This document shows, in pieces, positions 2,235-45,005 of a stretch of 64,000 nt of DNA (position 1 is the first letter of the stretch; each line of letters begins with the position of its first letter). The stretch is from Tolypothrix sp. PCC 7910 (lineage in GTDB: Bacteria > Cyanobacteriota > Cyanobacteriia > Cyanobacteriales > Nostocaceae). The stretch lies in assembly GCF_011769525.1 (NCBI RefSeq), contig NZ_CP050440.1:4155501-4219500 (forward strand), given 5' to 3'. The notes beneath the pieces are model-generated. The model was not told the DNA's origin, searched no databases, and was given only the letters and a program-made list of their open reading frames with translations. A program made the position numbers and the translations under genes.

Positions 2235-5170
2235 GATTGCTTACCTGCTTGATCTGGAATCGTAAAGTAAAAAATCGAGCCTTCACTCGGTTTTGACTCC
2301 ATCCAGATCTGACCGCCGTGGCGTTCTATAATTTTCTTACAAATAGCTAGTCCGATTCCAGTACCGGGATACTTACTTCTGCTGTGTAAACGCTGAAAAA
2401 TTACAAAAATTCTTTCAGCATACTGGGATTCTACACCAATTCCATTATCACGCACTGAGAATAACCATTCGTTTCCTGCTGGGGTAAGATGGGGATTTTC
2501 TGTGGCTGCTTCGATAGTGTTTCTGATGGCTTGGATGTGAATATGGGGCGGTTCCTCCCGATGGAATTTGATGGCGTTGGCAATCAGGTTTTGAAATACT
2601 TGTGCTAATTGCGTAGTATCAGCCATGATGTGTGGCAGAGGATCGCAGGTAATCTTGGCGTTACTTTCTTTAATGGCTACTTCCAGATTCGCGATCGCTT
2701 TTTCTACAACAGCATTACAATCTACTAATTTAAAAGGTTGCCCCCTGGTGCTAACGCGGGAATAGTTCAACAAATCATTAATTAAAGTTTGCATGCGCTG
2801 CGCCCCATCTACAGCGTAGAGAATGAACTCATCTGCACGGGCATCTAGCTGACTTTTATACCTGCGCTCTAGGAGTTGTAAATAACTAGTCACCATCCGC
2901 AATGGTTCTTGCAAGTCATGGGAAGCAATGTAGGCAAACTGTTCTAATTCGGTATTGGAACGAGTTAGTTCTTGCCTTTGGCGGGTTTCTTGTTCTAAAA
3001 GTTGGGCTTGCCACAGACCAATGCCAATTTGGTTAGCTAGTTGCTGTAACAAATCAAGTTCATGACTGTGCCACTCACGCGGGGCATTACATTGATGAGC
3101 AATCAATAAGCCCCAAATACCCTCACCGCTGAGAATGGGTACTACCAAGTTAGCTTTGATACCATACTTTTGTAGAAATTCTCGATGGCAGTCTTGGATA
3201 TTAGCTTTTTCAACATCTGTAATGGCACTGACTCTGCCTTGGCGATATCTCTCAACGTAATCTTGCTGAAAGCAGGGGTCAAGAATTTTTTGCCCCAGCA
3301 CTACAGGCCAACCAGGTAACACCGCTTCTTGCACCACTATTCCTGAACCATCTGGCCACAGCCGGAAAATGACAACTCTGTCAGATTGCAGAAGCTTTTG
3401 GACTTCGGTAACAGTGGTTTGGAGAATTTCTTCTATGTTGAGCGAGTCACGAATTTTCACAATAATTTGCGAAAATAACTGCGATCGCTGATTTTGGTTT
3501 TTAATATGTTCTTCTGCCCGTTTGCGATCGTCAATATCAGTATGGGAACCGACCATTCGCACGACTTCACCGTTGCTATCCCAAAGTGCTTGCCCTCGAT
3601 CTAAAATCCATTTATAATTACCATCTTTGCACTTAATGCGATGCTCGGTGACGTAATAGGGCGTTTTCTTGTCAAAATGTTCTTGAACTGCTGCTAATAC
3701 CCAAGCCAAATCTTCAGGATGAACCCGTTTTGACCACTCATCTAGATGATTAGGAATTTCCTGGTCTGTATAACCCAGCATTTCTTTCCAGCGTGGCGAA
3801 AAGAACACTTCATTAGTCTTAACGTTCCAATCCCAAATACCATCGTTGTTGCCAGTTAAAGCTAGTTGCCAACGTAATTCACTCGCCTGTAATGCTTCCT
3901 CAGCTTGTTTACGTGCGGTGAGGTCAAGTGTCACACCAATCATCCGCAGGGGTTGACCATCAGCATCATAAATCCCCACACCTCGCGCTAGTATCCAGTG
4001 AACGCTGCCATCTGGCCAAATATTGCGATATTCTGCCTCATAATCGCTGTGATTTGCTAGAGCTTGTCGTACAGACTTTTGCATATAAGCGCGATCGTCG
4101 GGATGGATAGCTTGCAGTAAAGTTTCATAGGTAAACTCAGCTGACTCCTCCAGACCAAAATTAGCTTTGCATTGGCTAGAGACTGATAGCTCACCTGTGA
4201 ACAAATTATGCTCCCAAGAGCCAAGTTTTGCAGCTTGCAACGCTATCTTCAGGTGGCGATCGCTTTCAATTAAAGCTGCTTCTACTTGTTTGCGATCGGT
4301 AATGTCTCTGGTAAAACAACGCGTATGGATAAATTCACCGTTCTCCCACAATACATTAGAGTGAATCAACACATAGCGAATTGAACCATCTTTGCAGCGC
4401 ATCCGTGCTTCGTAATTTTGTAAAGTTTCATTGTTACTCAGCCGTTGCATAATATCATCGATGGCTTCTTGGTCAACATGAAACTCAGCAATTGAGCGTC
4501 CAATATACTCTGAGCGCGTGTAGCCTAAAAGGTCAAGTTCCGCCTGGTTAGCCCATAGAATAGTGCCATCAGCCTTTACCCAATGCATACCGACATTAGC
4601 ATTTTCTACAAAGTCTTTCAGATCTTGCTGACTTCGTTCTAGTGCGGTTGTGACTCGTTGCTGTTCTTGGGAAACACGCGATAATTCTATTAAATTTCGT
4701 CTTAACTCTAATTGGTCAATTACCTGGCGACCTAAAGCTTGTAGTGCTTCTATTTGTTGTTCATTTAATTGTCGTGGTTGTTGATCGATAACGCAGAGAG
4801 TTCCTAATATATCTCCCTTGGGAGTAATCAAAGGTACACCCGCATAAAATCTCACAAAGGGATAGGAAGTGACTACCGGATTTTTAGCTAACTCTTCATC
4901 AGCTAAAGTATCTGGCACAACCACAAAATCTCGTTTCTCTACGCAAAGGTAGGATAAACCCACATTACGAGGTACTTCCGGCAGATCCAAACCGAGTTTT
5001 GCTTTAAACCATTGACGGTTTTCATCAATAAAATTGACTAAGGCTATAGGAGTACCACAAATAAAGGCTGCTAAATTTGCCAGGTTATCATAAGCTTGTT
5101 CTGGTTCTGTATCGAGAATTTGGTACTGGCAGAGGGCTTGAAGTCTTGCTGCTTCGCTATTAGGTAGCAC
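2231..5170 (-). CDS. GAF-PAS3-CBCR GAF-histidine kinase (candidate bilin photoreceptor)
   Basis: A 979-aa soluble sensor kinase. Order: N-terminal GAF (residues about 20-155), three PAS/PAC units (about 180-300, 305-425, 430-555), a second GAF (about 575-720), then HisKA (H751 in [10 protein letters not shown]) and HATPase (N865 in the N-box, DNGIG 908-912, GTGIGLAI 936-943). The second GAF has two hallmarks of cyanobacteriochromes: D631-P-C633-F, matching the DXCF motif, and C661-H662 in the usual chromophore-binding place, followed by KANLVVPIL and WGLLIAHQC. The H-box type (HDLQEPL) is that of phytochrome-like kinases. An Rcp1-type regulator follows with a 4-base overlap. The start is a GTG with no strong ribosome binding site. 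Light sensing is inferred from motifs, not shown. Confidence 0.92.
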
Positions 5171-37818: not shown

Positions 37819-38997
37819 TCATTTCTTCCGCTTTTTTCTAGCAGCGTCTCTCACTTGTTGATTAAGTAAGTAGCCAAAGCCGGCGGTTTCTAGGCGGGTA
37901 ACGAATTCTTCGCGGGTGTTACCTAGAGCTGTGGCGGTTGCGTCTATGTTCCAGTTGTATGAGTGTAATTGACTGAGTAAATAGACACGGCGGGTTTGGG
38001 CGGCGGAAAGGCGGTAGGTTTTGAGATATTCTAGTTCGCCATCTTCGCGAATAATGGCTTCGCCAATATGGTTTTCTTCCTTGGGAAGCAGACTAGTGAT
38101 AAAGCGTTGCAGTACAAAAGGCCCCATTGTATACACTCGCTGGGAATGTAGCGGACGTTGGAGTAATGCTTCCGCCATGAAGCCTTGAAAAGCAGCCCAA
38201 TCGGATCGCATTTGGGCGATCGCATGTCTCAAATCTGCCAAGCTGTGAATTTTAGCATCATCTACAGACAAATCCATCGGCAATGGCTTGTCAAACATCA
38301 TGCTGTATTCATAAATTAACTCGCCGTAGAAGTCTTCTAGTAAACTGGTGTGCAAAGCACGATAGTCTTCTGGGGTAGGAACGACAAAAGCCGATGCTAA
38401 AGTCTCAGCCACAAATACCAACACCCCAACTTGTCGAGGATGAATCTCAAATACCCGCAAAGCATCTTCTAATCCCGCGATATAACGTCCACTAAAGGAC
38501 ATTTCATAGCGTGAACCCAGCCCATGAGACAGAGCATACTTGGAATATTCACTCCAAGCAATATCTGGCCCAGAAAAAAACAGCGAGAGAAAACCTTCCA
38601 TAGCCAAATGCAGAGGTAACAATCGCAGTTGATTCTTAGCTTCCCGCTTCGCCATGCGATGCATCAACCGCACACTTGCACAACCACAGTCTAAACGCTT
38701 TCCATCCGGCTTGAACATCTGTCCGCCAAAAGCCGCAACGGGATTACCGTCATCACTCCAAGAAACTACCAAGCCATGAGGTACATAGGAGTAGTATTTT
38801 AGTCCGGGTTCCGTGATTTTATCTTCTAAAGAAACCACCGCTATGTCTTCGTGATAATCACGCTGCACTAAACGTAAGTCTCCGCGCACCTGACGACGCA
38901 ATAAAGGGACAATCCGCACTGCACCGCGTATCTGGGATGGTGCAATTTCCAATCCTTTTAAAGATATATCTGTTAATAATTGCTGTTTGGTAGCCAT
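37819..38997 (-). CDS. Conserved protein with C-terminal Fis-type HTH, ARPP-like
   Basis: A 392-aa soluble protein. The N-terminal half starts ISLKGLEIAPSQIRGAVRIV, then YHEDIAVVSLEDKI and GLVVSWSDDGNPVAAFGGQM; the C-terminal end (about 335-385) is a Fis/NtrC-like helix-turn-helix: RRVYLLSQLHSYNWNIDATA then ALGNTREEFVTRLETAGFGYLLN. The N-terminal part resembles, from memory, the ARPP domains described in bacterial RNA-repair/conflict loci (ARG- and rhodanese-phosphatase-associated proteins); I am not sure of this name. It lies just downstream of the vWA gene on the same strand, across the 21-bp array. Possibly a regulator or effector of that pair. Confidence 0.7.
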   Translation of the reverse strand: MATKQQLLTDISLKGLEIAPSQIRGAVRIVPLLRRQVRGDLRLVQRDYHEDIAVVSLEDKITEPGLKYYSYVPHGLVVSWSDDGNPVAAFGGQMFKPDGKRLDCGCASVRLMHRMAKREAKNQLRLLPLHLAMEGFLSLFFSGPDIAWSEYSKYALSHGLGSRYEMSFSGRYIAGLEDALRVFEIHPRQVGVLVFVAETLASAFVVPTPEDYRALHTSLLEDFYGELIYEYSMMFDKPLPMDLSVDDAKIHSLADLRHAIAQMRSDWAAFQGFMAEALLQRPLHSQRVYTMGPFVLQRFITSLLPKEENHIGEAIIREDGELEYLKTYRLSAAQTRRVYLLSQLHSYNWNIDATATALGNTREEFVTRLETAGFGYLLNQQVRDAARKKRKK

Positions 38998-39504: not shown

Positions 39505-40932
39505 CTATGCCCATTTCAACATTTGTTGCACTCGTTCAGCCAAATAAGCTTCTAATTCTGACAACGGTGCAGAACCATCAGCGAAGCGTGCGAATCCTAA
39601 CATGGTTGGTAAATCTTCTGCGTCGCGCAATCCCACTGTAGGGATGCTGGCGCTGAGATTTCGCAAGGAGAAATCCTCAGAATTAAACACCGGATTGCAA
39701 TGAATGATGGAAGTTCTCCTCCCAGGATCTAACTTAGCCCTAAATATCCGCAAGACTTCCGCCGCACCTTTGGGGGGATAGTTTTCGCAACCATCGGAGA
39801 CAATCACAACTAAATCTGCACCAGAACCCAAGGCGGCTAATAGTGGTGTAGCTAAATCAGTTTGTCCATGTGGGCGGACTTGCAAAGCATCTTCTGTGGG
39901 TACCGTCCAAAAAGCACGATATTCCTGTGATGCAGCTTGTAATAAATAGTGAGTAGCAACAGCTACACCCAAAGGACGGCGACGCTTTTCGCTAGAACCT
40001 GAGCTAGAGTAGCTACAATCTAAAACTGCTGCGACTTTCCCCAGCTTCAATGGTGCTTTTTTTAGCACTGAACGCGCCGATCGCTCTAAGGCTTGGTGAA
40101 AAATCTCTCTTTGTTCTTTTCTTCTTTCCAATGGCAAAGATAAGATATACAACGCCAACTTAGTTAAGGGTAACTTTCCTAAATCTAAGTCAATTTCCAC
40201 CTTTTCAGTACGTTCCGCCGCGCCTTGGAAACGCAACTTTTCACCCACAGTCATCTGCTGTTGGATTCTGGTTAAAAACACATCGCGTTTAACTTTGTGC
40301 TTTGCTGCTAATCCCTCAGCGACGGTGAAAGGTAAGTCATAAATAGCCTGTTCGCTAAAATGTGCTTGGCGGAACTTCTCGAATAACTCAGTTTCATACA
40401 CCTTTTGTTTCCAATTGCGGAACAGAAAAGTACCCAATTCACCCTGAAGTTTCAAATGTGCGTGAGATGCGATCGCTCTTACCTTGGGACGATACTTCAC
40501 AGCATGGAAGCTTAAATCGCCTCGCTGTTGTAAATAATCCCGTGCGATCGCGCGACTCCGACGGTTGTTAATTCGCCGTTGACGCAACTGCTGCAAAACC
40601 CCCCAAGCACGTTGCGGCGGTAAAGCATTGAGCGCATGAGCAATTAATGCACCCTCTTCTTCCTTATGTTGCGGTAACGTATTCTTTCCGGTCGCCAGCA
40701 ATTTCAAAATAATCTGCGCCTGATTAAAATGATTAATCCCCGCCGCCAAAGAACGAGCGTAAAGTAAGCGATAATTCCCCAAAATATAATCATGTAAAAA
40801 ATCAATTGATACTCTTTGACCATAAGCATCATCATAAAATTCCCGCTGTCCGGTACAAGCTAGACAAGCATTAATAAACATCACCAAATCTTCCCGCGCC
40901 ACCTGCTCAACGCGGTTATTATTAGTAACCAT
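39505..40932 (-). CDS. Helical domain plus vWA protein, possibly TROVE/Ro60-like
   Basis: A 475-aa soluble protein. Residues 1-290 are all-helical with repeated hydrophobic helices; residues about 300-460 form a vWA domain with a complete metal-binding MIDAS: D305-C-S-Y-S309, T358 (in GQTDLATPLL) and D380 (in IVSDGCEN). The layout (helical HEAT-like domain then vWA) is that of TROVE/Ro60 proteins, and a weak MTVGEKLRFQGAAER stretch could match the TROVE loop; the likeness is my inference. Ro60-type proteins bind small Y RNAs and misfolded RNAs. Two structured elements lie directly upstream on the same strand; the HTH gene lies downstream. Confidence 0.8.
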   Translation of the reverse strand: MVTNNNRVEQVAREDLVMFINACLACTGQREFYDDAYGQRVSIDFLHDYILGNYRLLYARSLAAGINHFNQAQIILKLLATGKNTLPQHKEEEGALIAHALNALPPQRAWGVLQQLRQRRINNRRSRAIARDYLQQRGDLSFHAVKYRPKVRAIASHAHLKLQGELGTFLFRNWKQKVYETELFEKFRQAHFSEQAIYDLPFTVAEGLAAKHKVKRDVFLTRIQQQMTVGEKLRFQGAAERTEKVEIDLDLGKLPLTKLALYILSLPLERRKEQREIFHQALERSARSVLKKAPLKLGKVAAVLDCSYSSSGSSEKRRRPLGVAVATHYLLQAASQEYRAFWTVPTEDALQVRPHGQTDLATPLLAALGSGADLVVIVSDGCENYPPKGAAEVLRIFRAKLDPGRRTSIIHCNPVFNSEDFSLRNLSASIPTVGLRDAEDLPTMLGFARFADGSAPLSELEAYLAERVQQMLKWA

Positions 40933-40975
40933 ATAAATTACGAATTACGAACTACAAATTACAAATTATTAGAGT

Positions 40976-41058
40976 GCTGTTCGGGGAAAGATTAGCATGA
41001 CTAGGTCAATCAACTTAACAGGTTGGAACGGAAGTCATACTCAAGTCCCGCGAACAGC
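40976..41058 (-). ncRNA. Structured RNA element, copy 1 (83 nt)
   Basis: An 83-bp element with P1 GCTGTTCG/CGAACAGC (8 pairs, 40976-40983 with 41051-41058), P2 GGGA/TCCC beside a one-base bulge, P3 ATGACT/AGTCAT (40997-41002 with 41033-41038) and P4 CAAC/GTTG (41011-41014 with 41022-41025) closing a 7-nt loop. It is followed by AAGACTGAAAAA. It is repeated 156 bp further right with the same length and helices. The strand is inferred: a C.A mismatch in P1 of copy 2 becomes a G.U pair on the minus strand, and the next gene on that strand is the vWA gene. Confidence 0.6.
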
Positions 41059-41131
41059 AAGACTGAAAAATTAGATAATTATATTTAAATGTTTTTGAAT
41101 TTTGAATTTTGAATTTTGAATTGTTTAGGAT

Positions 41132-41214
41132 GCTGTCCGGGGAAAGGCGGCGCGACTGACTAGGACGAATTCAAAGTTCGGGTTCGGAAGTCGCACCAAA
41201 GTCCCGCGAACAGC
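41132..41214 (-). ncRNA. Structured RNA element, copy 2 (83 nt)
   Basis: Same architecture as copy 1: P1 GCTGTCCG/CGAACAGC, P2 GGGA/TCCC, P3 GCGACT/AGTCGC (41152-41157 with 41189-41194), P4 CGAA/TTCG (41166-41169 with 41177-41180) around a 7-nt TTCAAAG loop, and the trailing AAGACTGAAAAA. P3 differs from copy 1 at two pairs and P4 at two pairs, and in each case both sides changed so that pairing is kept. The terminal loop and flanks are otherwise similar. Could be a Y-like RNA, a tandem leader element of the vWA gene, or a transcribed inverted-repeat DNA element. Confidence 0.6.
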
Positions 41215-41234
41215 AAGACTGAAAAACTTGAGAA

Positions 41235-41603
41235 TTAAGCGTAACAAAATTGTTTAGTTTGCGCTAGTTGTTCAAGTAATAATTCCGCAGATTTGTCCAG
41301 TGAAGTTACAAAAATACCTACTTCACTCTCTTGATTTGATGCTATCCAAGTACCTTTGAGAACAACTTCCACCGCATCAGCATCGCAAGGACAAATTTCT
41401 AAAATATTTGCTTGATTTAATTTCTCTAACTCTGCCAAATTAGATAAATCACAAGGAAGTAAAAATGCTGCTTGACTAGATTCAATGTAAATATTATTTG
41501 CAGAATGCAAAGATAGTGTAACTCTTTGATTTACCCAATTTTCTAATGAGGTTTCGAGATGTTCTAAGCTAAAGCTGTCTTCGGTGTAGGTAAGTTTTAA
41601 CAT
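41235..41603 (-). CDS. Conserved small hypothetical protein
   Basis: A 122-aa soluble acidic protein: WVNQRVTLSLHSANNIYIES, FLLPCDLSNLAELEKL, ILEICPCDADAVEVVLKGTW. It is beta-rich with a helical C-terminus. I know it only as a type conserved in cyanobacteria, without function. It is the gene upstream of the twin RNA elements and vWA gene on the same strand, so it may be in the same transcript. Confidence 0.7.
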   Translation of the reverse strand: MLKLTYTEDSFSLEHLETSLENWVNQRVTLSLHSANNIYIESSQAAFLLPCDLSNLAELEKLNQANILEICPCDADAVEVVLKGTWIASNQESEVGIFVTSLDKSAELLLEQLAQTKQFCYA

Positions 41604-41996
41604 ATTGGCTGACTGATATTTAAACTTTTAGGTGCTTCATCTATGTCTTAAGAATATGCGAGGGAATTTCCCCTAAGCCAATATAGCCTCAAAAGCTGGA
41701 AATGCTTATAGAACAAGGCTGAATCTGCTAGGGGAAGTTGAGAAGCTAGGGGAATCCCCGAACTTTGTCGTGCTGGGGATTGGGGACTGGGGATTGGGTA
41801 ATTGGTAATGGGTAATTGGTAATTGGTAATGGGTAATTGGTAATTGGTAATTGGAATTTACTTTTGTTTTACCCTTTACCGTTTCCCCCTTCCCCTTTCC
41901 CCTTTTACCGTTTCCCCTACTAACTAAATACCCAGCGCGGAAGTTGTTAAACTTGGATAATTCCCGGTAACGTTGTCCAGTTCTACAACTACAGCG
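41604..41996. other. Divergent intergenic with GGTAATTGG repeats
   Basis: Contains about a dozen GGTAATTGG / GGTAATGGG units at 41785-41860 and C/T-rich CCCCTTTCCCC runs. It should hold the promoters of the divergent small gene and NACHT gene. No clear -10/-35 pair was resolved. Confidence 0.6.
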
Positions 41997-44900
41997 ATGG
42001 CAAGAGCGAGTTATGGCCCCGAAGCAAAAAAGCGATCGCGCCGCTTGTTAGAGGTATTATTAGCTTATGCTAACGATGCCCTAGACTGTAGTGATGAAGC
42101 GAGTTTGGATGCTTTGCGTCCCCAAATCCAAACTCGCTGGCTGTCTGAGAATCGCTTGGTTGTCAGAACAAAAGTAAGATTTTTACAAACATTAACAAGT
42201 TTGGCAGCAGGTGAAGGACAATTAAACGCCGAACAAATCAAAGAAGCCTTAAAACGGTTTGCAGATTTCTTAGAAATCTTAGAAGATAATCGCCCATCTC
42301 GTAGCGGTTCAGAAACTTGGCACTTTACTCTCAATTTATGGTGCGATCGCCAAGACATAGCCACCAATTTACAAAAATTTGATATCCACTGGGAAAGTCG
42401 CCGCCCGGAGAAGTCGAAGCAAGTAACAGGGGGGAAAGATAGAGCAGATAGAGCAGATAGAGCAGATAGAGCAGAGGGAGCAGAGGAAGCAAATTCTCCT
42501 TCATCTCCCTCATCCCCCGACTGGAAGCAACTTTGTCGTGATGCTTTAATGGCGCAAAATCACCAACGCTTGACTACCAATCCTCTCACTAGTGCTGATG
42601 GTGTGAGTTTTGAATTAAATCAGGTTTATGTTCCCCTGGGTTTAGTGGAACGCAAACAACGTCTGCGTCAAGGTGGCGATGTCACGCCGCAAGATGGTTC
42701 GCGGTTATATGAACCGGAAGATTCGGAAATGACTCAGACTTTTAACCCTGATGAATTTATTCAACAATTATTAGGGGCGCAAGATAGCCAGCGCATCGCC
42801 ATTTTAGGCGAACCAGGGGCGGGAAAAACTACATTGTTGCAAAAAATCGCCGCATGGATTGTAGATAATACTGAAGATTTACCTGTCTGGGTTTCTTTGG
42901 CGGATTTGCAAGGTAAAACTTTAGAACAATACTTAATTCAAGATTGGTTACCTACTGCGCTTCGCAAATTACGCGTCTCGGAGGAAGTTGAAGAAGCATT
43001 TTGCGAACAGTTTAACCAAGGGCGAGTTTGGTTACTTTTAGATGCAGTGGATGAAATGGCTTTGGAATCTAGCCAAGCTTTAACGAAAATTGCCAGTTTT
43101 TTGACAGGCTGGGTTGCAGATGCCAGGATAATTTTGACTTGTCGGCTGAATGTTTGGGATGGCGGTAAAAATGCACTGCAAGCTTTTAAAGTTTATCGCA
43201 ACTTAAATTTTAGCTATGGCACAGAATTTTCTTTCGGTTCTAAATCTGCATCCAACCAAGTCGGAGAATTTATTCAGCATTGGTTTCAAGATCATCCCGC
43301 TTGTGGTGAGAGTTTACAAGCAGAGTTAAATCAACCAGAACGGAGACGACTCAAGGATGCGGTAAAAAATCCTCTGCGGTTAGCTTTATTATGTCGTACC
43401 TGGGGATTAGCGCAGGGAAGATTACCAACAACTAAAGCGATGTTGTACGAACAGTTTGTAGAATCAATCTACGAATGGAAACAGGATCGTTTTCCCACAA
43501 CTTCCACCCAGCGACAGCAGTTAAATCGGGCATTGGGAGAATTAGCATTATTAGCTATTTCCCAAGAAAAAACCAAGTTTCGCCTCAGACATCGCTTCGT
43601 TTCCCAAGTTCTTGGCGCGTCTGATGATGGTTTATTTCAATTAGCATTACAGTTAGGCTGGCTAAATCAGGTAGGTATCTCCGAAACTCAGGGCGAAAAA
43701 GTTTACGCTTTTTACCATCCCACCTTTCAAGAATATTTTGCCGCCCAAGCCGTTACTGATTGGCATTTTTTCCTAAATCACACATTAAATCTCAGCAATC
43801 CCTCCCCATCTCCCAATTACCGCATCTTTGAACCCCAGTGGCGCGAAGTCATTTTGCTATGGCTAGGTAGAGATGATATTCCGCAGACACACAAGGAAGA
43901 ATTTATCCAAGCATTAATTGAGTTTAACGATAACTGCGGTGGCTACTATGGCTATCAAGCTTATTTTGTCGCCGCCCAAGGAATTGCGGAGTTTGCAGAT
44001 TGTCAAAAAGCTGATGAAATTGTACAGCAGTTGGTAAAGTGGCGTTTTGGTTATGGCAACTTCCAAGACGAAAAGCCGTGGAGGTATCCAGCTCCAATTG
44101 TAGAATGTGCGCGGGTGGCTTTACTAAAAACCGATCGCCCAAAAGCGATCGCAGCTTTAGAAAACTACATCTCCTCCAGCCAAAACGACTTTGTAATCTG
44201 GAATGCGGCTTACAGCTTGGGTAAAATTTTCGATCCAGGTAACAAAATTGCGATCGCTAAATTAGAAGCACTCGTCAAAACTCTACATTATGATTCAGTT
44301 CGCTGGCAAGTTGCCTATAGTTTAGCCAGAGTCGATGCTGGTAATCAAAATGCGATCGCAGCCTTGCTAGAAATTATCGCATCTAGCAAAAATGAATCTA
44401 CTCGTCGCAAAGCTGCTTATAGTTTAGGTAAAATCGACCCCCAAAATACCATTGCCATCTCTACACTCAAACAAATCGCTGAATCTGCAATTGATTCATC
44501 TCAAAGCCGACAAGCTTTAGAAAATTTAGCCACGCTGCAAGGTGATGATTTACCTAAATCCGCTGAAGTTTCTCCCATCTCAAGATTTGATCAGTATAGA
44601 AGAAATAACAGAAAACAAAAATCAGCCACATCCAATTATTTCTCTATCAACTCAAAAATTTCTGAATTAATTCGCGGTATCGCCGCCTCTGAAGATGAAG
44701 ATACCCAAAGAAGACGGGCTTATAAATTAGCGCAACTCAATCCAGGTGATCCAGTTGCACTTACAACTTTATTACAATTGATAGCATCCACCGAAAATCT
44801 TTCACTACATAAACGTGCAACCGACAACTTAAAAGAAACAGTTCTCAATGAACAGTTACCACAAGTAATTGCAGCTTTAAAAAATTCCAACTGCTATCAA

Positions 44901-45005
44901 GTCTTAGATGATGAATGGGAACGATATCGCAACTCTTTTAAACTTCTGTGGCACTGTGCAGAAAATATGGATTATTTAGAATTTTATCGAGTTTGGCATC
45001 TTTGA
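41997..45005 (+). CDS. NACHT-HEAT NLR-like ATPase
   Basis: From the ATG at 41997 (a TTG 24 bp upstream is in frame) it encodes 1002 aa. Residues about 1-130 are a helical N-terminal domain (KKRSRRLLEVLLAYAND). Then comes a low-complexity linker (DRADRADRADRAEG), a NACHT with Walker A GEPGAGKT at 271-278, Walker B VWLLLDAVDEM near 344-354, and TCRLNVWD sensor region, followed by a winged-helix part (FYHPTFQEYFAAQAV) and HEAT/PBS repeats from about 690 on (AAYSLGKI and VAYSLARV, repeated). This is the architecture of bacterial NACHT/NLR-like STAND ATPases, many of which are anti-phage sensors. The trigger and effector are not evident; the N-terminal domain lacks a clear nuclease or TIR motif. 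Confidence 0.9.
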   Translation: MARASYGPEAKKRSRRLLEVLLAYANDALDCSDEASLDALRPQIQTRWLSENRLVVRTKVRFLQTLTSLAAGEGQLNAEQIKEALKRFADFLEILEDNRPSRSGSETWHFTLNLWCDRQDIATNLQKFDIHWESRRPEKSKQVTGGKDRADRADRADRAEGAEEANSPSSPSSPDWKQLCRDALMAQNHQRLTTNPLTSADGVSFELNQVYVPLGLVERKQRLRQGGDVTPQDGSRLYEPEDSEMTQTFNPDEFIQQLLGAQDSQRIAILGEPGAGKTTLLQKIAAWIVDNTEDLPVWVSLADLQGKTLEQYLIQDWLPTALRKLRVSEEVEEAFCEQFNQGRVWLLLDAVDEMALESSQALTKIASFLTGWVADARIILTCRLNVWDGGKNALQAFKVYRNLNFSYGTEFSFGSKSASNQVGEFIQHWFQDHPACGESLQAELNQPERRRLKDAVKNPLRLALLCRTWGLAQGRLPTTKAMLYEQFVESIYEWKQDRFPTTSTQRQQLNRALGELALLAISQEKTKFRLRHRFVSQVLGASDDGLFQLALQLGWLNQVGISETQGEKVYAFYHPTFQEYFAAQAVTDWHFFLNHTLNLSNPSPSPNYRIFEPQWREVILLWLGRDDIPQTHKEEFIQALIEFNDNCGGYYGYQAYFVAAQGIAEFADCQKADEIVQQLVKWRFGYGNFQDEKPWRYPAPIVECARVALLKTDRPKAIAALENYISSSQNDFVIWNAAYSLGKIFDPGNKIAIAKLEALVKTLHYDSVRWQVAYSLARVDAGNQNAIAALLEIIASSKNESTRRKAAYSLGKIDPQNTIAISTLKQIAESAIDSSQSRQALENLATLQGDDLPKSAEVSPISRFDQYRRNNRKQKSATSNYFSINSKISELIRGIAASEDEDTQRRRAYKLAQLNPGDPVALTTLLQLIASTENLSLHKRATDNLKETVLNEQLPQVIAALKNSNCYQVLDDEWERYRNSFKLLWHCAENMDYLEFYRVWHL

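Follow-up and report, generated by a model that had tools for sequence, protein, structure and literature searches.

A 64,000-nt stretch of the genome of Tolypothrix sp. PCC 7910 (contig NZ_CP050440.1, positions 4,155,501 to 4,219,500; this whole stretch is called the window here) contains two 83-nt elements directly upstream of a gene for a protein with a von Willebrand factor A (vWA) domain. What do these elements encode, and what ties them to that gene? An earlier note, made from the letters of the window, had read them as structured RNA and offered three candidates: a Y-like RNA for a Ro60/TROVE-like protein, a leader element, or a transcribed inverted repeat. The first of these is the best supported, by the predicted Ro60 fold of the vWA protein and by two genomes in which the RNA lies apart from the gene. 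Comparative sequence analysis and a structure prediction suggest that the 83-nt RNA is probably a dedicated, Y-RNA-like partner, acting in trans, of the adjacent protein, a divergent relative of the RNA-quality-control factor Ro60, and that it works with ARPP-2, encoded downstream. The features concerned are:

40976..41058, minus strand: RNA copy 1, 83 nt, 5' end 41058; match to covariance model R1 of 92.3 bits, E 8.9e-19
41132..41214, minus strand: RNA copy 2, 83 nt, 5' end 41214; R1 match of 99.5 bits, E 1.4e-20
41051-41058 with 40976-40983, minus strand: helix P1 of copy 1, with a bulged C at 41050
41046-41049 with 40984-40987, minus strand: helix P2 of copy 1, GGGA/UCCC
41033-41041 with 40994-41002, minus strand: helix P3 of copy 1
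41022-41025 with 41011-41014, minus strand: helix P4 of copy 1, with a 7-nt loop
41059..41070, minus strand: conserved 12-nt 5' flank of copy 1, UUUUUCAGUCUU on the RNA strand
41215..41226, minus strand: the same 12-nt 5' flank at copy 2
39505..40932, minus strand: gene for the Ro60-like vWA protein, 475 aa, its start codon 43 nt past the 3' end of RNA copy 1
37819..38997, minus strand: ARPP-2 gene, 392 aa, the third part of the conserved locus

Structure, covariation and strand

Copy 2 is paralogous to copy 1 and identical in architecture; it starts 20 nt past the stop of an alr0857-family gene. On its own (minus) strand the element opens with GCUGUUCGCGGGACU. The two 83-nt elements of the earlier note, with a common outer stem and a GGGA/TCCC inner stem, were recovered at the same positions, together with the four two-sided changes by which P3 (ATGACT/AGTCAT versus GCGACT/AGTCGC) and P4 (CAAC/GTTG versus CGAA/TTCG) keep pairing, and the C.A mismatch of copy 2 does become G.U on the minus strand. 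The common flank AAGACTGAAAAA is likewise present, but it was misnamed a 3' flank, since on the RNA strand it is the 5' flank UUUUUCAGUCUU. This 12-nt flank is possibly a short 5' extension or part of a promoter.

The secondary structure, 25 pairs in all, was read by eye from 17 cyanobacterial copies on the minus strand (alignment A2, 17 of the 21 copies found by a search pattern in the window's genome and its relatives). It consists of an 8-bp P1, a 1-nt bulge at nt 9, the GGGA/UCCC helix, P3, which opens into a loop containing UUCCG, and P4 with its 7-nt loop. In these 17 rows 98.2% of the 398 cells are paired, and two-sided change is seen at 15 pairs and in 44 cells, compared to 7.0 and 10.6 in shuffles and at most 4 and at most 11 in slid controls.

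Because the structure came from these same 17 sequences, it was tested on fresh copies. The independent set holds 22 copies not used for the structure, from Myxococcota, other proteobacteria, one armatimonadete and one sericytochromatian, with loci obtained by protein search and RNA ends set by model R1. An RNA match was present in all 24 loci outside the cyanobacteria proper, and the 22 copies are these minus L140 and L153 (identical sequences); one member, L154, is labelled Comamonas and looks myxococcal. Pairing was kept in 95.4% of the 548 cells. With window copy 1 added, 95.6% of 573 cells are paired, two-sided change affects 18 of the 25 pairs, and none of 500 shuffles equals any measure. 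The covariation thus persists in copies that had no part in defining the structure, in agreement with the RNA-level selection that the earlier note had read from two copies.

The same alignments inform on the strand. On the minus strand G-U cells outnumber A-C cells in every set: 36 to 1 among the 17 rows, 56 to 8 among the independent 22 and 184 to 47 among 85 distinct copies. This bias indicates that the transcribed strand is the minus strand, that of the vWA gene, as had been proposed. Folding energies point the same way: against dinucleotide shuffles, z is -5.90 and -4.41 for copies 1 and 2 on the minus strand and -3.95 and -3.08 on the plus strand, the minus strand being the stronger. Among 89 copies located with R1 (see below), GGGACU is present in 88 and GAYUUCCG in 74, and the bulge at nt 9 is C in 76, U in 12 and G in 1. 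The upstream stretch ends in AGTCTT or one of three close variants in 33 of the 89.

At E<=10, R1 matched two copies only in the 8.76-Mb genome of the window, with 150 of 2204 first-look candidates scored; hence the elements are no dispersed repeat. BLASTN gave 40 further matches of the region in this genome, located at query 118-176 (window 41077-41135) and made up mostly of a GAATTTT repeat. This heptamer repeat separates the two RNA copies, and similar stretches occur elsewhere in the genome.

Coupling of the RNA to the vWA gene

A protein scan of named genomes returned 398 relatives, the best 80 of which were kept as named loci. The RNA lies 5' of the vWA gene, and on its strand, in 75 of these 80 loci according to R1, with two or three copies in 13 of the 75. 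R1 matches in the named loci number 89 on the gene's strand and 12 on the opposite one (11 weak shadows of the same elements and 1 chance match). Three of the five loci without the RNA have just 3, 39 and 293 nt upstream; the other two belong to genomes G005 and G006, discussed below. The named loci span heterocystous and other cyanobacteria, Myxococcus, Corallococcus, Archangium, Hyalangium, Sorangium and Nannocystis, and also include an armatimonadete, giant sulfur bacteria (Thiomargarita, Parabeggiatoa) and a sericytochromatian.

Whole-genome counts give a similar picture. In the window's order R1 matches 35 of 291 genomes, and vWA protein matches occur in 51, 34 of them strong (E<1e-50); all 34 genomes with a strong match are among the 35 RNA-positive ones. 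The odd genome, G213, has a degenerate RNA (41 bits; C85:168928-169011, L176), no vWA match and an N-terminally truncated ARPP-2, and seems to be a natural case of co-loss in which the RNA decays where the protein is lost. The 17 remaining vWA matches are weak, and the 12 retrieved all belong to a sister family described below (the others are in G095, G178, G210, G244 and G271). In Myxococcota, the phylum of Archangium, R1 matches 47 of 195 genomes and the strong protein occurs in 48, namely the same 47 and G624, where an RNA of 47.4 bits appears once filters are relaxed. Matches in the phylum of the armatimonadete (4 of 151 genomes) each adjoin a vWA gene. When loci from best-match lists were centred on the RNA instead, 61 of 62 contained the vWA gene, the exception being a short contig; these 62 exclude L172-L177, of which L172, L173 and L176 are without a vWA gene.

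A covariance-model search, as proposed in the earlier note, places the RNA beside the vWA gene in several phyla. With 75 of 80 named loci, 34 of 35 RNA-positive genomes of the order and 47 of 47 in Myxococcota, tight coupling of RNA and gene across several phyla is shown at the level of sequence comparison. This joint occurrence points to an RNA-protein partnership outside the catalogued RNA families.

The vWA protein has a predicted Ro60-like fold

The 475-aa protein has an N-terminal all-helical domain of ~290 aa and a C-terminal vWA domain in which the metal-ion-dependent adhesion site (MIDAS) residues are complete. No Pfam or NCBIfam match was found for the window protein, and the 7 families that any of 42 homologues match at E 0.1 do not include TROVE (PF05731). 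Protein alignments were hand-picked for spread: A5 joins 41 of the 80 named loci to the window, and A6 joins 33 loci to it. Within the MIDAS motif DxSxS...T...D, residues D305, S307, S309 and D380 are invariant among 42 sequences and T358 is conserved in at least 90%. The AlphaFold model (predicted local distance difference test score, pLDDT, 85.8) shows a helical HEAT-repeat domain and a vWA domain in the Ro60 arrangement, and the ten best VIA-align rows for this predicted fold are all Ro60/TROVE, with 11-14% identity over the aligned residues. The Ro60-like two-domain fold is assigned by prediction only; as far as this goes, the RNA is encoded with a Ro60-family protein.

Does the RNA act in trans?

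The premise that the RNA always lies in the 5' leader of the gene failed when tested. No RNA was found within 4 kb upstream of the vWA gene in G005 and G006 (L094, L120), and in these genomes an RNA of 101 and 94 bits is located on another contig, directly after an alr0857-family gene and with no vWA gene there. Such separate placement favours a trans-acting RNA. An extra copy in G081 lies ~3.6 Mb along the contig from the linked copy; it is intergenic and has similar upstream sequence. An extended -10-like box, TGnTAnnnT, is positioned 6-8 nt before RNA base 1 in 22 of 41 non-redundant upstream regions, compared to a mean of 0.29 per offset when all offsets are counted. In the window a sigma-70-like site on the minus strand lies 19 nt (from its -10) before copy 1, but the 3 sites of this kind found there compare with 2.3 expected.

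Co-transcription with the vWA gene is nevertheless likely in many taxa, because the gap from the nearest RNA to the gene is below 100 nt in 60 of 75 loci, with a minimum of 16 nt, and all 12 strong matches in the ten genomes reached through loci sit at the vWA locus. A trans-acting RNA, sometimes processed from a joint transcript, fits these sequence data best. A mechanism can be outlined on this basis. Two genes for a small structured noncoding RNA would be transcribed leftward, on the minus strand; across gaps of 16-60 nt the RNA and the protein mRNA are probably transcribed together, the RNA being either cut out or read through, while elsewhere it can stand alone. The closed end (P1, the bulge and GGGACU/UCCCC) may dock the protein in the manner of the bulged stem of Y RNAs. 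By analogy, the RNA would act in trans to gate or target the ring-shaped Ro60-like protein, and the resulting ribonucleoprotein (RNP), with ARPP-2 as effector, could serve RNA quality control or repair under stress.

Weighing the alternatives

Both the gaps and the linkage would suit a cis-acting 5' leader of the vWA-ARPP-2 mRNA too, whether an autoregulatory site or a ligand-sensing one, with no function off the mRNA. We regard such a leader as unlikely, though worth keeping in view: wherever the two are linked, the RNA is 5' of the gene and on its strand, the short gaps leave little room for a second promoter, and no terminator-like site was found in window 40850-41750. The leader reading is at odds with the RNAs that stand apart in G005 and G006, with the extra intergenic copy in G081, with gaps that range from 16 to 579 nt, with the tandem copies at 13 of 75 loci, and with the 45 nt downstream, in which no common expression platform was recognised by eye. 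The leader candidate of the earlier note is the less likely choice, given the RNAs apart from the gene in two genomes.

Several further observations weigh against a trans-acting partner of a Ro60-type protein and should be set beside the short gaps, the linked matches and the missing terminator. G005 and G006, two drafts from a single genus, show an identical arrangement and probably represent one event; in the extra copy of G081 one pair of P2 is broken, and the vWA match found in this genome spans residues 6-283 only. No -10-like box was found in the other class of upstream regions (27 regions, including the window's flank type). As to the structure, GGGGAA and GTCCCRC (plus strand) were both demanded by the search pattern behind the 21 copies, and R1 served to locate the later ones, which makes P2 constant in part by design; the measure "further pair types" was equalled in 27 of 500 shuffles of the 17-row alignment; and one conserved U.G pair supplies 16 of the 36 G-U cells in those rows. 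As to the protein, Foldseek TM-scores reach just 0.45-0.53, and an hhalign comparison of A5 with 8 canonical TROVE proteins is collinear over 397 columns and weak (probability 29%, E 6e-4).

Might the 83-nt RNA be a true Y RNA, of the Y_RNA or YrlA family, that has merely drifted? The bacterial Y RNA motif for Ro60 binding is GNCGAAN0-1G / CNUUG. GNCGAAN0-1G occurs in 0 of the 89 copies, and CNUUG, found anywhere in 39 of 89, is never in the Y arrangement, so that the earlier doubt over the Y RNA end motif was well placed. No gathering-level Rfam match was found in the window; up to E 5 there are four matches at the element, with no Y family (Y_RNA, YrlA) and no RF00005 among them. ARAGORN found 0 tRNA genes in the window, which has no RF00005 match either. 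Since it fails the motif, Rfam and tRNA-like tests, the 83-nt RNA is not classed as a Y RNA. What speaks for kinship is the adjoining protein of predicted Ro60 fold and the pairing of the RNA ends in a stem with a bulge at nt 9 of the 5' strand, a pyrimidine in all but one of the 89 copies. Vertebrate Y RNAs have a bulged C at a comparable place, and in Y RNAs the bulged terminal stem is the docking site for the protein.

The window's genome moreover holds a canonical TROVE/Ro60 gene (L198, G000:C1:1923000-1929500, gene 2540-4144). About 250 nt upstream of it lies a tRNA-like RNA (2150-2288; RF00005, 48 bits) with a 71-nt insertion and a weak YrlA match below cut-off, apparently a partner of the tRNA-mimic type. 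The 83-nt RNA and its vWA protein would hence form a second, different Ro60-RNA pair in one cell, and a drifted Y RNA appears highly improbable. Of the order's 291 genomes, 71 have TROVE matches, among them 19 of the 35 that are RNA-positive. At another locus, L205 (G275:C31), a TROVE gene is flanked on either side by tRNA matches, 10 of them within 4 kb.

There is only a slim chance that the RNA, instead of being a structural partner or gate, serves the Ro60-like protein and ARPP-2 as something to protect or sense: a substrate or a decoy, such as bait for an RNA-cleaving toxin. The homologous sister operon lies by an RNA ligase gene in 1 of 12 loci and has TrcR-type sites in 9 of 12, and ARPP is discussed with conflict systems in the available parts of PMC9503650, all of which would be compatible with such a role; the conserved GGGACU and the bulged stem fit protein docking equally well. 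A DNA-level inverted repeat or mobile element (a miniature inverted-repeat transposable element, a repetitive extragenic palindrome-like repeat or a protein-binding site) could account for an imperfect palindrome in two tandem copies. It is hardly credible given only two matches in the genome among the candidates scored, compensatory changes whose G-U bias singles out one strand, and placement 5' of a single gene family across several phyla.

A dedicated trans-acting partner of the divergent Ro60 therefore remains our preferred reading. Beyond it, we lean, at slightly better than even confidence, to a wider proposal: a second, independent class of Ro60 RNP, with a divergent Ro60 outside TROVE, an RNA family of its own and ARPP-2 as effector, present in several phyla and at times on plasmids, coexisting in many genomes with canonical Ro60 and a tRNA-like RNA, and serving an RNA-damage or translation-stress response, the sister operon being under TrcR.

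Neighbouring genes and outlying loci

ARPP-2 lies downstream of the vWA gene in 74 of the 80 loci, and two of the six without it reach a contig edge soon past the vWA gene. A C-terminal Fis-type helix-turn-helix in ARPP-2 is possible. On the other side of the RNA copies the window has:

41235..41603, minus strand: alr0857-family gene (NF045647, E 1.5e-45)

An alr0857-family neighbour occurs in 21 of 80 loci, all heterocystous cyanobacteria by name, and the RNA remains beside this gene in the two genomes whose vWA gene sits elsewhere. Further along, window 41973-45005 encodes an EAD4-NACHT-HEAT protein (a STAND NTPase of conflict-system type) that adjoins the locus.

Some individual loci deserve mention. 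A second RNA copy (63 bits) at G711:C1:11290710-11290907 (L233) lies by a short vWA gene fragment ~13 kb from the intact pair and is a decaying duplicate. On the conjugative plasmid pNe_3 of Nostoc edaphicum (L235) the RNA (89 bits), vWA and ARPP-2 genes are flanked by transposase genes, with XisH/XisI genes between vWA and ARPP-2. Distant homologues of the protein (24-25% identity) are encoded on the Alkaliphilus plasmid pB6464 (Bacillota; L236), where the gene lies near TerD and adjoins an ARPP-1 gene annotated DUF6569, and in an uncultured phage of 462 kb (LR756500.1, 103976-105349; L237). No R1 match was found in the L236 or L237 stretch.

A sister operon with TrcR-type sites

The sister family pairs a vWA-like protein with an ARPP-1-type gene in all 12 loci retrieved (L186-L197), and the vWA-like protein is homologous to the Ro60-like protein over most of its length (hhalign 99.5%, E 6.9e-23, 396 columns). 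No R1-type RNA was found in these loci. TGTAGTAT occurs upstream of the operon in 9 of 12, twice in five of them, compared to 0.18 expected from mononucleotide shuffles; of the 89 copies of the 83-nt RNA, 1 has it upstream. According to the available parts of PMC10272220, TGTAGTAT is the TrcR-type site that is protected in the tRNA operon of Anabaena, rtcB is a further target of repression by TrcR, a regulator tied to translation stress, and alr0857 itself rises 8.5-fold when TrcR is absent. The sister operon is thereby predicted, from its upstream sequence, to be a new member of a translation-stress regulon. At L194 (G048:C23; 5996-6988 and 7261-9637) the sister operon adjoins the RNA ligase gene (PF09414) mentioned above, and also 14 tRNA matches on one strand.

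Comparison with known systems

No prior mention of the RNA-gene pair was found in searches of an open-licence library or in Rfam. A 2016 Nucleic Acids Research review of RNA-repair systems reportedly links TROVE and SPFH modules to noncoding RNAs. If the preferred reading is true, a second RNA family on another Ro60 branch would reveal the RNA features that matter to the ring protein, and would open the long-standing question of what such RNAs gate to study in a tractable bacterial system. It would also connect RNPs of the Ro60 type with ARPP proteins. The biochemistry of the latter is predicted: the available text of PMC9503650 has ARPP as a predicted enzymatic protein related to ADP-ribose or other sugars. 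With the covariance model and the named strains, this reading can be put to the test directly.

The ARPP systems of that paper resemble the present locus in that an ARPP-family protein sits in a conserved gene neighbourhood, and vWA genes occur in its ARG-centred neighbourhoods too; in contrast, the passages available associate ARPP with ARG, HIRAN, WYL and deacetylase genes, and the words TROVE and ncRNA were not found in the main text as available. The sister operon is closer, sharing a homologous vWA-like protein and an adjoining ARPP-type gene, but it is without an R1-type RNA and has TGTAGTAT upstream in 9 of 12 loci.

For the canonical bacterial pair of Ro60 and Y RNA, a link to structured-RNA decay and RNA repair is known (PMC7790460, PMC8058203). 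The Ro60 partners described in the passages available are Y RNAs only, including tRNA-like bacterial forms. The likeness of our locus to the bacterial Ro60 (Rsr)-Y RNA RNP, as in Rsr/Y RNA of Deinococcus radiodurans or rsr-yrlBA-rtcBA of Salmonella, lies in a Ro60-fold gene that adjoins a gene for a small structured RNA, and in a terminal stem with a single-nucleotide bulge. It differs in an RNA that lacks the Y motif (0 of 89) and any Rfam or tRNA match in the window, in a vWA protein outside Pfam TROVE that is 11-14% identical to Ro60 structures, and in the ARPP-2 gene that follows here in 74 of 80 loci.
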